32,010 nt of DNA from positions 1 to 32,010 of the IMG/VR virus record IMGVR_UViG_3300006810_014106. One strand, 5' to 3'. Below the pieces are notes generated by a model, which searched no databases, was not told where the DNA came from, and saw nothing but the letters and a program-made list of their open reading frames with translations. Each line of letters opens with the position of its first letter. Within the stretch, counting starts at the first letter, position 1. Positions 3,486-30,080 of this stretch are shown one piece after another. Made by a program: the position numbers and the translations under genes. This stretch comes from a virus.

Positions 3486-4051
3486 AAGCGCTCCTCAAAA
3501 CTCACGCTAAACGATCGTAAGTTGCCTTTCTGGATCGAGTACGAAAGATCATCCTCTGCAAACGCCACGGTAAATGGAACATCGTTGTAAATGACGGTTT
3601 CGCCAATGGTGACGGGGAATTCAAGCGGAGTGGTTAGTGTTATCTGTCCCTCGCTAGACGCTTCGGCAAGAGAGTAAACTTTGTCGTGGTTAGCGAACTT
3701 AATGTAGTCATTGATGGCCAACGCACCGCTGATTAAGACAGGCACAATAAGATGACCGGATTCAATATTATTCGACACAGTCACGGTACCAGTCACGGTA
3801 CCAGCGCTATAGGACTCGATCGGTACAATCAATGTAAAGCGACTGAAACGCCCACGCATAGCCGCTTTAAACGCAGCCAATGGCGCATGCTCAGCGCGAG
3901 TTAATAGCGAATACTCGCCTGTAATTTTCCAGCGAGGCGCACCGACTTTGCGAGACTGCGAGCGCGGACGATTGGCATCCGTCACCAATGTTGGGTCAAT
4001 GAGTTCGATTTGGACTTTAGAAAATTCAGGGGATGTAGGGTACTGCTTCAT
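3482..4051 (-). CDS. Minor / distal-tail-like protein
   Basis: 189 residues, beta-rich. It sits directly after the tape measure gene, where siphoviruses encode the distal tail protein that starts the tip. The N-terminal half contains KVGAPRWKITGEYSLLTRAEHAPLAAFKAA-type sequence (about residues 36-66), a pattern seen in tail proteins of transposable siphoviruses; the C-terminus ends with RSFSVSFEERL. It overlaps the tape measure stop by 4 bases and the next start by 4 bases. I recognise the genomic slot more surely than the fold, so the exact role is inference. Confidence 0.6.
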   Translation of the reverse strand: MKQYPTSPEFSKVQIELIDPTLVTDANRPRSQSRKVGAPRWKITGEYSLLTRAEHAPLAAFKAAMRGRFSRFTLIVPIESYSAGTVTGTVTVSNNIESGHLIVPVLISGALAINDYIKFANHDKVYSLAEASSEGQITLTTPLEFPVTIGETVIYNDVPFTVAFAEDDLSYSIQKGNLRSFSVSFEERL

Positions 4052-7035
4052 AGACGACCTGCATTCGATGACATGGCTTGCTTAATGATGGACTCAATAG
4101 TTCGGCTGGAGCGCACCAAGTTGCTGTTAAAACTCGCAGCATCATTTGTTTGTATTTGGAACGTCACCTGCACAACCGTTGGCGATGCAGCGGCTTGCGC
4201 TGTAGTGTTCGAACTGTCGTTGGCTGCGCGTTGGTTTTGGATATAACGAGTGAAGTCTTGGTTTTGATTAGGTGACAAAACGCGCTCGCCTTTTTGCAAC
4301 AGGTAAGTGGATTCGGTCGGCACATTGGTCATACCGCCGTGAGCAATGCCCTGGTATTCTTGTGCTTTGATTTTACCAATTTGCATAGCAGTCAATGCAG
4401 CAATAGAGACAGCAAGGACAGGACCTAAAATCCCGCCCTGGGCAAAGGCTTTAGTTGCTGCAATAGCACCGTTAATTGTCGCCTGTACGATCGCTAACTT
4501 CTTAGAGTTTTCGAAGTCCTTTTTGCTGCCTTCGGCCATGACTTGTGACAAATTGCCAAATATTTCAGCAGTGGTACCAGCCGCTGTATACTTTGCTTCA
4601 ACTGCTTCTTTTTCTTTCTGTTTCTGTATGTCAACAAGGCGTTTCTGATGCTGGTCTTCTTCTGCCTCAGCTCTGGAGTGATAACCCTGCACTTCAAGCA
4701 GCTCTTTTTCGCGGCGTGATCGCACCGCATCTAATGCAATGCGTTCTTTTAAATCAGCGAGACGTTGCTGATGAAGTGCCGCTTGATATTCTTCTTGCGA
4801 GTCAAATCCCTGGATAGCAATCAGCTCTGCTTGGCGCTGTTGCTGCAATGCTGCTTGTTTTTTTTGCTCACGAATCTGTTTGAGTCGATCTTGATGGGAC
4901 GCTTCTTGCTGCTCAACAATAGACTGAAAACCCTGCGCTTCGGCAATCTCTTGGGCACGCTGTTGAGTGAGTGCATTCTGACGATTTTGGTTTGCCAGCT
5001 TAACCAGGTCCTCACCATTTTTGAGCGAATTTTGCAGGCTCAACTCATCGTATCGCGCTTCGCTGATTTGCTTATTTTCTAATGCCGTATCAATGATGGC
5101 CTGACGACGCAGATACGCGGCAGCAATGGTTTGTTCTTGCGTATATAAAGAGGCCTCTAATGCCGCCAGTTCGTCTTTATTGTTGTTAGCCGTTGTTGGT
5201 GTATCTACAGGATCGCTTTTCGCTGGGTTCTTCAGCTCATTAATGCGTGCCATGATATCCTGGCGCAACTGCACCGCTGCATCGAGCTCTTTGTTACTGT
5301 CTTTAACGACTTGAATCTGATCATTAACCGCTGTTTGAAAGATAGCCGCACCGCCATTAAGCTGTGACTGGAGGGCTTTTTGCCCAGCAGACTGTCCGTC
5401 ATTAATGGTTTTTAGCTTTGCAATATCAGCGTCTAGATCAATCAGCTTCAGCTCTAACTGAGCCGCGTTTAAAGTACGATAGCTGTCGGCCAACTTAGCG
5501 ATTTCACCATCAAGCTCGCCCGCTTTGCCTGCCGCCTCAGACGAATTAATAGCAAAGATAGCCAGCGCGGAACCCGCCGTAATAAGCAATCCTAACGGGC
5601 CACCTAACAACGCCATACCGCCAGCCAAAGCGCGAGATGCAATATTGGCTCGTTGCGCCGCTGTTGCGACCGTCGTTAACGTGGCAGCATGAGCGGCTTC
5701 GGCACGAGACAACTGACGAGTTGCCGCCTCCATATTTCGCGCGGCAGCGACAGAGGCAACGGACGCGGCAGTGACTCGCTGAGCTTTTTGTGCCGCTGCT
5801 TGCGCGGCCAGTAAATCCGCTTTTGCTAGCTTCTCGGCGGCAACAGCCGCTTGTAAATCGGCGGCAATTTTGGCTCTAGTGGCGACAACTTCCGCAAGCT
5901 TGGCTTGTGTTACCGCACCCAATGCAACAACAACACGCGCACCTAAAACCGTCGCCAACACTTCGAGTGTCGTGATTAGCTCGTCTGCATTTTCAGACAT
6001 AAAATCGATAGCGGCGGTGGTGCCATCGAGCACAGAGCCCAAGCTGTCATTGATTGGTTGTTCAAATGCCGCCGCCATTTTAATGCGGGCGGTTTCTAAG
6101 TCGTTATATTTAGCCGTTAAGTTATTAGCCGTCCGCTCAGACGCACCATTATAAGCGGCCAGTGCCGTAATAAGCGTGTCGCGGAACATGTCACTAGTGA
6201 CTTTTTGCGCCCCAACCAGCTCTCTAAAACCTCCAGCACTAAGCCCTGCCGCTCTGTCCAATTCTTGCAATAGACCTGGCAATGGCTCAGTAACCTGATT
6301 CAGTTCTTCCGCACGTAATATGCCAGCGGACATACCCTGAGCAATCCCATAAAGACTTTGCTCTAAATTCGCGCTGGATGCTCCCAATGCTGATGACGCA
6401 TTAGATAAACCTTCTAGCAATTGACGGGCTTGCGCTCTGGTCGTTAGACCGGCTTTTTCTAGCGTGAGAATACGAGAGTACGAGTTTGCTAAGACAAGTA
6501 GGTTTTTATGATGCGTATCGGATAAGTCGATCAGATACCGTTCGTTCTCGCCATACGCTTGAGCTGAGCCGGATAACTCAGTCAGGCGGGTGCGCATGTC
6601 CTGGTACGCAGACAATTGCTCGGCCATTTGACTGAGCTGATTACCAATTTGCAGCGCAACAAATGCACCTGCGGCCGCTTTGGCCATGGTGCGTAATGTG
6701 GTGTTAACGTTGTCGCCAGATCGCTGGACACGATCTAGGCCGCTGGCCGCTTGAGAAGAAGAGGATGCGGTGTTGGAGCCAAACGACTGTGACGCCATGG
6801 TAGCGTCATTAATATGTTGAGTCGCTTGTTGCGCCGGTGCATGCACAACACGCAAACCATCACGGGCATTCGCCCCCGCGGCTTGCGTCTGCGCTCCCAT
6901 GTCACGGGCAGATTTACCCGCTGCATCAATCGTCGTATCCAACTTTTTGACACTGTCTGCACTCTGATTGACGCCTGAGACCAACTTAGTATTGTCGGCG
7001 ACCAGGACTAATTTGAGATTTAGATTACTACTCAT
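4048..7035 (-). CDS. Tail tape measure protein
   Basis: 995 residues, the longest complete gene in the window. It spans the tail tube lumen and sets tail length. The N-terminal part (about residues 110-300) matches the tape-measure domain common in Mu-like and lambdoid prophages, with AYQDMRTRLTELSGSA and YGIAQGMSAGILRAEELNQ. Around residues 465-500 is a Gly/Ala/Leu hydrophobic segment that could insert in membrane. Long helical stretches follow, including 41-residue repeats at ~701-805. The gene overlaps the preceding frame by 8 bases, the usual arrangement after the G/GT chaperone genes. At about 3 bases per 1.5 angstrom of helix this predicts a tail roughly 150 nm long (rule of thumb, not measured). 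Confidence 0.93.
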   Translation of the reverse strand: MSSNLNLKLVLVADNTKLVSGVNQSADSVKKLDTTIDAAGKSARDMGAQTQAAGANARDGLRVVHAPAQQATQHINDATMASQSFGSNTASSSSQAASGLDRVQRSGDNVNTTLRTMAKAAAGAFVALQIGNQLSQMAEQLSAYQDMRTRLTELSGSAQAYGENERYLIDLSDTHHKNLLVLANSYSRILTLEKAGLTTRAQARQLLEGLSNASSALGASSANLEQSLYGIAQGMSAGILRAEELNQVTEPLPGLLQELDRAAGLSAGGFRELVGAQKVTSDMFRDTLITALAAYNGASERTANNLTAKYNDLETARIKMAAAFEQPINDSLGSVLDGTTAAIDFMSENADELITTLEVLATVLGARVVVALGAVTQAKLAEVVATRAKIAADLQAAVAAEKLAKADLLAAQAAAQKAQRVTAASVASVAAARNMEAATRQLSRAEAAHAATLTTVATAAQRANIASRALAGGMALLGGPLGLLITAGSALAIFAINSSEAAGKAGELDGEIAKLADSYRTLNAAQLELKLIDLDADIAKLKTINDGQSAGQKALQSQLNGGAAIFQTAVNDQIQVVKDSNKELDAAVQLRQDIMARINELKNPAKSDPVDTPTTANNNKDELAALEASLYTQEQTIAAAYLRRQAIIDTALENKQISEARYDELSLQNSLKNGEDLVKLANQNRQNALTQQRAQEIAEAQGFQSIVEQQEASHQDRLKQIREQKKQAALQQQRQAELIAIQGFDSQEEYQAALHQQRLADLKERIALDAVRSRREKELLEVQGYHSRAEAEEDQHQKRLVDIQKQKEKEAVEAKYTAAGTTAEIFGNLSQVMAEGSKKDFENSKKLAIVQATINGAIAATKAFAQGGILGPVLAVSIAALTAMQIGKIKAQEYQGIAHGGMTNVPTESTYLLQKGERVLSPNQNQDFTRYIQNQRAANDSSNTTAQAAASPTVVQVTFQIQTNDAASFNSNLVRSSRTIESIIKQAMSSNAGRL
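4620..4935 (-). repeat. 41-residue internal repeats in the tape measure protein
   Basis: Three consecutive units begin with QGF/QGY: QGFQSIVEQQ, QGFDSQEEYQ and QGYHSRAEAE, at residues ~701, 742 and 783. The first two are exactly 41 residues apart from start to start, and each carries a HQxRL core 13-17 residues after the QG. The DNA is less similar than the protein, so the duplication is old or under selection for the helix pattern. Confidence 0.8.
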
Positions 7036-7417
7036 TCAGCGACTCGTTGATTAACTTGCGTGCATGATTGCCCATGTATTTTAGTTTTTTGAAATCGTCT
7101 TTCGAATACTGACATTGACTAAGTCGTGATTCGGCTTCGATTTGTAGCCAATCAAAACCGTCGCACAGTTTTGGCGAGCGCCAGCGCCATAGATCCGACA
7201 CTGCTAAAAACCACTCAAGTGCCGTCCAATTTTGCGGAAGCACATCAAAGCGCTCTTGCTGTTGGCGCTGCTTTTCAAATTGCATCAGCACCTCGTCTGG
7301 CGCACCAGCGGCACGCATATCTGCCAGCACGGCAGCGTTGTCGCTTGGCGATGGCGCATCAAACCAATGCGCCACCGCCTCGGTTAGTTTTTTTCGATGC
7401 CTGCTTGCGCTTCCCAA
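7028..7417 (-). CDS. Tail assembly chaperone, T frame (expressed by -1 frameshift as G-T fusion)
   Basis: The frame could nominally begin at a TTG (7417), but no ATG and no ribosome-binding site precede it. Instead it lies in the -1 frame relative to the upstream gene and is entered at the A AAA AAC heptamer at 7387-7393. The fusion would be 231 residues: 112 from the upstream frame plus 119 from this one, beginning LTEAVAHWFDAPSP. The T portion is helical, with several Trp residues (WTALEWFLAVSDLWRWRSP), and ends overlapping the tape measure start by 8 bases. In siphoviruses the G-T fusion binds the tape measure while G coats it. Independent translation from TTG is possible but unlikely. Confidence 0.85.
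   Translation of the reverse strand: MGSASRHRKKLTEAVAHWFDAPSPSDNAAVLADMRAAGAPDEVLMQFEKQRQQQERFDVLPQNWTALEWFLAVSDLWRWRSPKLCDGFDWLQIEAESRLSQCQYSKDDFKKLKYMGNHARKLINESLNE
7347..7379 (-). promoter_or_regulatory. Frameshift-stimulating stem-loop
   Basis: On the mRNA strand GGCGGTGGCGCA pairs with TGCGCCATCGCC, giving 12 bp with one G-U wobble and a 9-base loop. The stem begins 7 bases after the slippery heptamer, the spacing typical of -1 frameshift stimulators. Confidence 0.85.
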
Positions 7418-7722
7418 AAACCGGTGATTAATCCAGACCGAACAAACGGGAAAGCAATTAAGCGGTTGAGGTTTTCAGGCGAATACGGCATAACATCTTG
7501 CGTCTCGCCATCGGCGCTTTGAGCACCAAAATCTTCATCGCCCCAGCCAACAACAACGACGCGAAGCAAATCAAAGTCACTGACTTTTAAACGATCGTAT
7601 TCTTCCTGTGGAATCAACTTGTAGGTAATGTTGACAGGGATAATTTGCAGCTTGCCGCCATTTGCAGGCATACCAATATCGACAGGCCAGACGACAGTTG
7701 GGTTAGTTTTTAATACAAACAT
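7384..7722 (-). CDS. Tail assembly chaperone G
   Basis: 112 residues, beta-rich at the start (MFVLKTNPTVVWPVDI) and ending GIEKN at the slippery site. It lies between the major tail protein and the tape measure, the slot of lambda gpG, and most ribosomes should terminate here to give the shorter product. The sequence is not close to lambda gpG, but position, size and frameshift signal define the role. A ribosome-binding sequence with AAGGAAC lies just before the ATG. By family knowledge the protein binds the tape measure during tail assembly and is absent from the virion. Confidence 0.88.
   Translation of the reverse strand: MFVLKTNPTVVWPVDIGMPANGGKLQIIPVNITYKLIPQEEYDRLKVSDFDLLRVVVVGWGDEDFGAQSADGETQDVMPYSPENLNRLIAFPFVRSGLITGFWEAQAGIEKN
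7387..7393 (-). promoter_or_regulatory. Slippery heptamer A AAA AAC (-1 programmed frameshift)
   Basis: In the upstream gene's frame the codons read GAA AAA AAC TAA, so X XXY YYZ is in register and the stop follows immediately. A -1 slip gives CTA ACC GAG, entering the T frame. Heptamer, spacer and stem together form a textbook signal at the position where lambda-type phages encode gpG/gpGT. Confidence 0.92.
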
Positions 7723-7754: not shown

Positions 7755-8690
7755 TTAGCGGTACGTCAGAGTGAATTCGTCATTGCCAATGAGCGGCACA
7801 AATGACATACCCATTTCAATAGTGGTTGTGCCATTTGCGTCGCCGTATTTAGGAGTGAGCAGCTGCACGTTAGGCGCGTCGAACTCGACGATTTTGCCTT
7901 TTGTCTTGCCATGTTCAATGTGATAACCGCCCATGGTGGATGCGCGTACGCGCTCAAAGAAGTCCATCGTAGCCAATGCGGGCGCATCAATCGTGATAGA
8001 GCCCGTTGTTGCGCGACTCCCAATCTTGACTTCCTCTGATGTAAGACGGGCTTCATACGCCACTTCGTGCCCCAACTCGAATGAGAATTTATGCGCTTCG
8101 CCCGCGATGCCGTGCAAGCTGAAATTAGCCGTGTTGCGAGGCGAAACAGGCGTTGGATCAAGAAAAGCTGACCAATCCGGTACCGGAGCAGACTCGGTGA
8201 CAGGGCCCGCATACAAGCCGGTGAAATTAAACGCAAGCTTGGTTAGTGTGTTTGGCTCTAGTCCAAAACCAAACGTACCGCGACAGCCAAGGACTTTGTG
8301 CAAAATATTGTCTTCATAGTAATAGAGGGTAACGCTTTCAAATTCTTCTGAGCGCGTGGCATAAACAGCGGCTTCACTGCCCACTTCTGTAATCAACGTT
8401 TCACTCATGCCACACGCGCGCAACAGGTCAGCAAACGCCGGTGCACTGGCGTCGGTACCAAACGATTGGTTTTCAATGTTGAATGACAAGGTGATGTGTT
8501 CACCCACGTGGAATACTGAGCTTGCGCCAAGGTATGGCTTCAGTAATTCGCGGTCTACGGTTTCCGCTTCCAATGCTGAAATAGTCACGTTGGACGCTAA
8601 CAGCGCATTCGCACCAAGTGGGCCAGAGTCAACACCATAGTTGCCCTCTAGCTTGCCAAGAATCAGTTTTTTACGAGCAGAAATAGCCAT
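7755..8690 (-). CDS. Major tail tube protein
   Basis: 311 residues. Polymerises into the non-contractile tail tube. It starts MAISARKKLILGKLEGNYG, a hallmark of tail-tube proteins in transposable siphoviruses, and is rich in beta strands throughout, with a C-terminal immunoglobulin-like stretch from ~200. GGGAG precedes the ATG at good spacing. It lies between the tail terminator and the G/GT chaperones, as expected. The length is above the ~200-250 residues of minimal tube proteins, fitting the additional C-terminal domain. Confidence 0.88.
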   Translation of the reverse strand: MAISARKKLILGKLEGNYGVDSGPLGANALLASNVTISALEAETVDRELLKPYLGASSVFHVGEHITLSFNIENQSFGTDASAPAFADLLRACGMSETLITEVGSEAAVYATRSEEFESVTLYYYEDNILHKVLGCRGTFGFGLEPNTLTKLAFNFTGLYAGPVTESAPVPDWSAFLDPTPVSPRNTANFSLHGIAGEAHKFSFELGHEVAYEARLTSEEVKIGSRATTGSITIDAPALATMDFFERVRASTMGGYHIEHGKTKGKIVEFDAPNVQLLTPKYGDANGTTTIEMGMSFVPLIGNDEFTLTYR

Positions 8691-16268: not shown

Positions 16269-17356
16269 TACCATGCCCCTTCAAATTGATCTTGGTCTGA
16301 ATAATCGTCATGCTCTGAGCCTTCACCCCAGCGGCTTACCCTGTCTGGTAGAGAGGTGAAGTCGATTTCACCACCTTCCATGTAATCCGCTCGGTTTGCC
16401 ATTGCTAGAGCAACCGCGAAGTCACCGTGGCGTTTGCTTTTTGAGTCGTTTGCGCCTTCATCTTTAGTACGGCCCTTATCAATTGCAGGGATACCGTTCA
16501 CGACTTTGATATGCTGTAAATCGTCTAGGATGTTTTGATGGCGTGGTACTTCCATGTTAAAGGATTCAAATTCGGCTTTTAATTTAGGCATCCATTCTTG
16601 GTACCAGCCCGCTGACAGCATGACTTGATCCACCATTTCTGTACCAAACTCTATCGCTGCTTGCTCTGCTAAGTAGCCGCCGTTCCCTGTTGCATCGAAA
16701 GCTAAACCACTCAAGCGAGGAAGTCGTTTAGTGATGAACAGCATGACTTGCTTTTGCTGCTCGTATGTCAGGTCTCGCAACTCAACAACAAAGGGCGTTC
16801 GCTTTCGTAAGTCTGAACGTTTGGCCAGTGGGACGAAGACAGTTAAATCGCCACGTCGTGCAAAATCCTCACCGAAGGTATGGCGGTGTTCTGGATTTAG
16901 CTTATTTAGTAGTGGCAAGAGATGCTCGTTACAAAAATCATTCATCTCAGCTTCGCGCATGGATGGCGACCAGGTCATAAAGTCGGCTGGCGCTTCATAA
17001 CGAATAATTGGGATAGAGTGATCGGCCACCATGGCTTGTTCGATCAGTACACGGCCTAAATAAGAGCCTCCAGATTTTTTAGGTACGCAGCCGTATTCTT
17101 CATCGGCGGACTCTTTATTGGGCGCATTTTTATAGAGACCATCGCGCCATTTCTTCTCTGCTTCTGGTGACCATATTTGCCCTGTAACGAAGCAGATACG
17201 GCGGTACAGACCGTCCGCGATGGCGTCATCAAGTGTAATGCGGTGAACGCTGTAATCTTTTTTACCTTCACGGGCTTCTTGAATGTACTCATTGAACGCG
17301 TTGTCTACGCCATTATGCGTGCTGATAAGGCGAACTTTGTTCCCCCACATGATCAA
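16268..17356 (-). pseudogene. Terminase large subunit, C-terminal nuclease fragment
   Basis: 362 residues counted from a TTG at 17356; an ATG lies at 17350. It begins right at the ATPase coupling motif (MWGNKVRLISTHNG), a position that is internal in every intact relative, so the true gene starts upstream. The RNase H-like nuclease has Asp164 and Asp170 in GEDFARRGDLTVF, Asp221 in GLAFDATGNGG and Asp312 in KRHGDFAVALA, all intact. In the complete enzyme this domain cuts packaged DNA once the head is full. Confidence 0.85.
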
Positions 17357-29410: not shown

Positions 29411-30017
29411 TCCAGTGCCGGAAGGCTACAAACGCAACGCCGCTGGGCACCTAGTGCCAGAGGCCAACATTAAAGAACAGGATCTACTGCGAGATGACCT
29501 GGTAAACACACTAACAGCTAAGGCGCTGTCTCTACACGATGCGCTCACGGCATTTAAAGAGGAGGCGCTGACTGAAATCCGCGATTTAGTCACGGTGGCG
29601 GGCGATCGATACGGGGTCAATCTAGGCGGCAAAAAAGGCAATGTGTCGCTGCTGTCGTTTGATGGGCGCTACAAAGTCACTCGCCAGTATCGTGAAGTAG
29701 TGGCGTTCACCGAAGAGATTGAAGCGGCTAAGGCACTGATTGATTCATGCCTAGAGCGCTGGAGCGAAGGGGCAAACATCAACATCAAGGCCGTTGTTTC
29801 TCAGGCGTTCCGAACCAATACCAAGGGCGAAATTAAGACTGGCAAGGTCTTGGATTTGATGAGAATGGATATTGACGATGAGGAATGGACACGAGCAATG
29901 AATGCCCTAAAGGATGCGCTCCAGAGTGTTGGTACCGCCGTTTATGTTCGACTGTATGAACGTGTTGGCGAGTCGGATAACTACCGCCCCATTTCATTAG
30001 ACATTGCGAGTTTGTAA
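29391..30017 (+). CDS. DUF3164 family early protein
   Basis: 208 residues. The opening PVPEGYKRNAAGHLVPEANI is diagnostic of DUF3164, as are YGVNLGGKKGNVSLLSFDGRYKV in the middle and the C-terminal LYERVGESDNYRPISLDIA. Found in the early region of nearly all Mu-like phages of Gammaproteobacteria and thought to act on DNA, though no activity is established (it is sometimes listed as sulfate-transporter-like by mistake). Two helical parts surround a central beta region. It is followed by a 63-base gap. Confidence 0.9.
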   Translation: MNTQHINPVPEGYKRNAAGHLVPEANIKEQDLLRDDLVNTLTAKALSLHDALTAFKEEALTEIRDLVTVAGDRYGVNLGGKKGNVSLLSFDGRYKVTRQYREVVAFTEEIEAAKALIDSCLERWSEGANINIKAVVSQAFRTNTKGEIKTGKVLDLMRMDIDDEEWTRAMNALKDALQSVGTAVYVRLYERVGESDNYRPISLDIASL

Positions 30018-30080
30018 GCGAAACGCGGCTTATGTCGCGTCTATTCAGCGTAGTGGCTGGGTACTGATGAGCAGCTAATC

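Follow-up and report, generated by a model that had tools for sequence, protein, structure and literature searches.

A predicted lambda G/GT-type −1 frameshift signal between two tail chaperone genes of a Mu-like phage

The tail of phage Mu is contractile. In phage lambda, the slip site of gene G is G_GGA_AAG, and the stop codon follows a few codons later. The lambda −1 shift near the end of G, which lies between the genes for the tail tube and the tape measure protein, gives a minor GT fusion (gpG/gpGT), and the two tail chaperone genes of Mu are also fused by a frameshift, which there is a −2 shift (PMC5009743). A tail-assembly −1 frameshift has been proposed for ORFs 35/36 of the Pseudomonas Mu-like phages of the PaMx73/D3112 group, which combine a Mu-type head with a siphophage tail; the proposed heptamer is T_TTT_TTC, 43 codons ahead of the stop (PMC4378225). 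In Acinetobacter phage Loki, which is not described as a Mu-type phage, AAAAAAC abuts the stop of the chaperone gene (gp12/gp13; PMC5313236). For Rhodobacter phage RcapMu, which is Mu-like, the depositors noted a ‘potential −1 frameshift’ in the record of gene 49 (JN190960.1).

Here we analyzed a stretch of viral DNA of 32,010 nt (IMG/VR record IMGVR_UViG_3300006810_014106, positions 1 to 32,010), which is referred to as the window. By its gene content, the window is a Mu-like transposable phage. Its genes for the head and for transposition are of the Mu type (gpT capsid, protease I, F, portal, Gp36, GemA, rve transposase, and AAA protein), and its tail genes are those of a phage with a long, non-contractile tail. 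Two small overlapping genes, designated G and T, sit between the tail tube gene (7755–8690, minus strand; PF18906 Phage_tube_2, E 3e-8) and the tape measure gene (4048–7035, minus strand; PF20155 TMP_3, E 3e-30; phrog_339, E 1e-77), giving the gene order tube-G-T-tape measure, and the start of the tape measure gene overlaps the stop of T. We predict with high confidence that the G/T junction carries a signal for programmed −1 ribosomal frameshifting, of the lambda G/GT type.

Gene G (7722–7384, minus strand) encodes 112 amino acids, is preceded by a Shine-Dalgarno-like AAGGAA (7734–7729) 6 nt ahead of its ATG, and ends with GAA AAA AAC TAA, that is, E-K-N-stop. The slippery heptamer A_AAA_AAC (7393–7387, minus strand) is of the X_XXY_YYZ form in the zero-frame phase of G, and both its phase and its position at the junction are the same in relatives. 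The zero-frame TAA (7386–7384) abuts its 3′ end and opens the 7-nt spacer TAACCGA (7386–7380, minus strand). After the heptamer, the −1 frame is open to 7028, and translation through the shift gives a GT product of 112 + 119 = 231 amino acids. The heptamer, the spacer length, and the 231-residue fusion of the original prediction are all borne out by these coordinates.

The spacer is followed by a hairpin (7379–7347, minus strand) with a 14-bp stem and a 5-nt loop, GGUUU (GGTTT in DNA). It lies within the distance downstream of the slip site (about 5–9 nt) that characterizes heptamer-type signals. The stem arms are at 7379–7366 and 7360–7347, and in the coding-strand RNA they form a continuous helix, GGCGGUGGCGCAUU / GAUGCGCCAUCGCC, with two G-U pairs, one an inner G-U and the other a loop-closing U-G. 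The 12-bp stem described earlier holds when only Watson-Crick pairs are counted, but on the coding RNA the stem is 14 bp. The folding energy of the 47-nt stretch is −27.3 kcal/mol (z −5.33), and none of 200 shuffled sequences was equally stable. The opposite strand folds more weakly (−21.1 kcal/mol), because the inner G-U turns into a mismatch there.

For ribosomal slippage, its efficiency, and the chaperone roles, we argue by analogy with lambda. Most ribosomes would terminate at the TAA right behind the heptamer and release G. A minority, stalled by the hairpin that lies 7 nt past the heptamer, would move back by one base on A_AAA_AAC, re-pair to AAA AAA, and read on into T to produce the GT fusion. 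G and GT would then serve as tail assembly chaperones, with G coating the tape measure protein and GT recruiting tail tube subunits through its T part. In Escherichia coli, A_AAA_AAC is far less slippery than A_AAA_AAG (PMC5009743), and a weak slip site would fit with a low share of GT and with a strong hairpin.

G matched phrog_569 (E 3e-14), and 4 of 16 members of the G family matched phrog_313, ‘Tail assembly chaperone’. An AlphaFold model of G (pLDDT 81) matched BFVD models of ‘tape measure chaperone’ from Klebsiella phage Solomon, Enterobacter phage Ec_L1, and Serratia phage Scapp, which are themselves predicted structures (TM 0.56–0.64, probability 1.0, E 9e-4 to 9e-3). In its modeled fold, G resembles a tape-measure chaperone. 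The −1 frame extension T (7390–7028, minus strand; 119 residues after the shift) is DUF1799-like. It matched PF08809 (DUF1799) with E 1.3e-4 and 22.6 bits, below the Pfam cut-off of 26, and 13 of the 16 aligned T members matched that family at E ≤ 0.01; T also matched phrog_680 (E 1e-13). Its model has a pLDDT of 87, with a helix beginning at residue 2. Neither model found a match in PDB fold searches, no lambda-type family was named in the family searches with either protein, and tblastn with T alone returned no named phage. PHROGs labels both phrog_569 (7384–7722) and phrog_680 (7028–7390) ‘tail length tape measure protein’, and this label looks wrong for the families that hold the G and T chaperones.

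In a count over the window's long open frames, 53 in-phase X_XXY_YYZ heptamers were present, including 12 of the shift-prone types as listed by us. Only A_AAA_AAC at 7393–7387 both abuts a stop and opens a long −1 frame, which runs for 121 codons; the next best elsewhere in the window was 48. We then compared the window with three close relatives (L002–L004; about 91% protein identity). The GA-heptamer-stop-spacer-stem region forms 49 consecutive invariant columns, although about 20% of the coding columns vary. No other invariant run is as long (codon-permutation p 0.002, on three distinct sequences including the window).

The G and T alignments contain no stretch conserved enough for degenerate scans to succeed, and homologous loci were gathered instead by tail-tube and Mu gpT capsid searches, with G and T located by profile HMMs. 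This yielded 33 distinct G/T pairs from isolates, genomes, and metagenomes, comprising Mu-like-head phages and their relatives. T was in the −1 frame of G in every pair, and a −2 relation was found in none. An in-phase AAAAAAC (23 pairs), AAAAAAG (5), or GGGAAAC (4) was present at the junction in 32 of the 33; the remaining one, Microcystis phage yong1 (L018 3059–3789), kept the −1 relation yet lacked a convincing canonical heptamer close to the stop of G. The zero-frame stop abuts the heptamer in 16 loci and lies 3–63 nt further on in the others.

In 15 of the 16 loci where the stop abuts the heptamer, the hairpin that follows ranked within the top few percent for local stability, the exception being ThpS-P1 (rank 20%). 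With stability ranked along both genes, the median over the 16 was the top 1.5%, and the ranks combined gave p 3e-14 by a calculation that ignores relatedness. RNAalifold on 14 aligned sites returned zero consensus pairs. The family hairpins begin 3–8 nt past the heptamer and differ in length and sequence with no common register; covariation is uncountable because of these varying starts and lengths. The five AAAAAAG loci, at least three of which look closely related, had no unusual hairpin downstream. It is conceivable, if rather doubtful, that this DUF1799-type chaperone family tunes its G:GT ratio by trading signal parts. Such a trade, which we advance only tentatively, would pair the weak A_AAA_AAC or G_GGA_AAC with a touching stop and a strong hairpin, and the strongly slippery A_AAA_AAG with a more distant stop and without a special hairpin; five AAG loci, several apparently close kin, are too small a sample to claim it. 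The adjacent stop might itself increase slipping through slow termination.

A fusion could also arise in transcription, if RNA polymerase slipped on the run of seven consecutive A that spans the slip site (7394–7388, minus strand) and produced mRNAs with one extra A. The equivalent junction of RcapMu, RcWaterboi, ThpS-P1, and RC1 has GGGAAAC, which offers only a few equal bases in a row, and a hairpin at ribosomal spacing has been kept although a polymerase has no need of it. We regard polymerase slippage as quite improbable. We judge it similarly improbable that T is made separately by re-initiation past the G stop, with the heptamer incidental. Bacterial ribosomes are able to re-initiate close to a stop, and a GTG at 7375–7373 is preceded by GAGG, but the two are just 2 nt apart and the GTG lies inside the 14-bp stem. 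T has no plausible start, as had been noted before; none of its start codons has a usable Shine-Dalgarno sequence. Distant phages retain the T residues that precede any good start, and the −1 relation and the heptamer are constant across the family. A separate downstream start is disfavored because the post-shift motif KLxxA..W recurs in distant phages and makes up the first helix predicted for T, although the K-L of this motif is dictated by the heptamer and the stop and is not independent evidence.

Two further readings appear extremely remote. The portal and terminase genes of the window are likewise split over two frames, and the junction could by the same token be a sequencing indel within a single fused gene; however, the −1 relation recurs in all 33 distinct loci, which are of independent origin and include the three close relatives. 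The shift could otherwise take place at T_TTC_CCG, 60 nt ahead of the stop, which is in phase and falls where the −1 frame of the window is open. This heptamer is missing from L003, and in both L002 and L003 the −1 frame opens only from A_AAA_AAC on, and it was rejected as the shift site. Ribosomal slippage at A_AAA_AAC is our preferred explanation.

The locus can be set beside RcapMu genes 49/50, which encode homologous G and DUF1799 T proteins in the same order, with the heptamer abutting the G stop and a hairpin present; the frameshift marked by the RcapMu depositors falls at the corresponding position. RcapMu differs in its stop, TGA, and in its heptamer, and its proteins are only about 27% (G) and 21% (T) identical to those of the window. 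The arrangement is shared with lambda in the predicted −1 shift between the tube and tape measure genes, but here AAAAAAC abuts the stop. The stop-touching AAAAAAC of Loki is alike by site, and the frame relation of −1 separates the window from Mu. Lambda-type recoding in a phage with a Mu-type head is supported by the sequence and by the 33 loci, although ‘shows’, the word used in the original prediction, is too strong. The pairing predicted here was already known: the RcapMu record and the D3112-group proposal of 2014 had placed a potential −1 tail-chaperone frameshift in phages of the Mu type, and the stop-touching AAAAAAC has its own precedent in Loki. For annotation, the locus is better described as G plus a G-T fusion than as two independent genes. 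The 33 sites provide a small natural series of slip site, stop distance, and hairpin for studying how phages tune chaperone ratios.

A Marinomonas fungiae contig (L021 / L100) carries a capsid 93% identical to that of the window, and this identity suggests a host near the Marinomonas fungiae group. Its G and T are strongly diverged, with AAAAAAG and a later stop, and its tail module appears, from the sequences, to have been exchanged relative to the window phage. The Mu-type portal gene (16274–14716, minus strand) is split over two frames that cover PF06074 positions 2–184 and 193–336, and the portal of relatives such as L024 is one uninterrupted frame; the split is either a broken gene or a contig indel. 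The gene for the terminase large subunit (17922–16268, minus strand) has an apparent two-frame split around 17353–17356, which looks like a second broken head gene or a contig indel. A tandem repeat with a 96-bp unit (3.8 copies, 87% matches) occupies positions 1–369 and is open at the contig end. Hammerhead ribozymes are known in many prophages (PMC3088659), and a type II hammerhead is predicted at 30016–30080 on the plus strand (Rfam RF02276, 62.4 bits against a cut-off of 37), where it adjoins the end of an ORF at 30017, ahead of the GemA-like gene.
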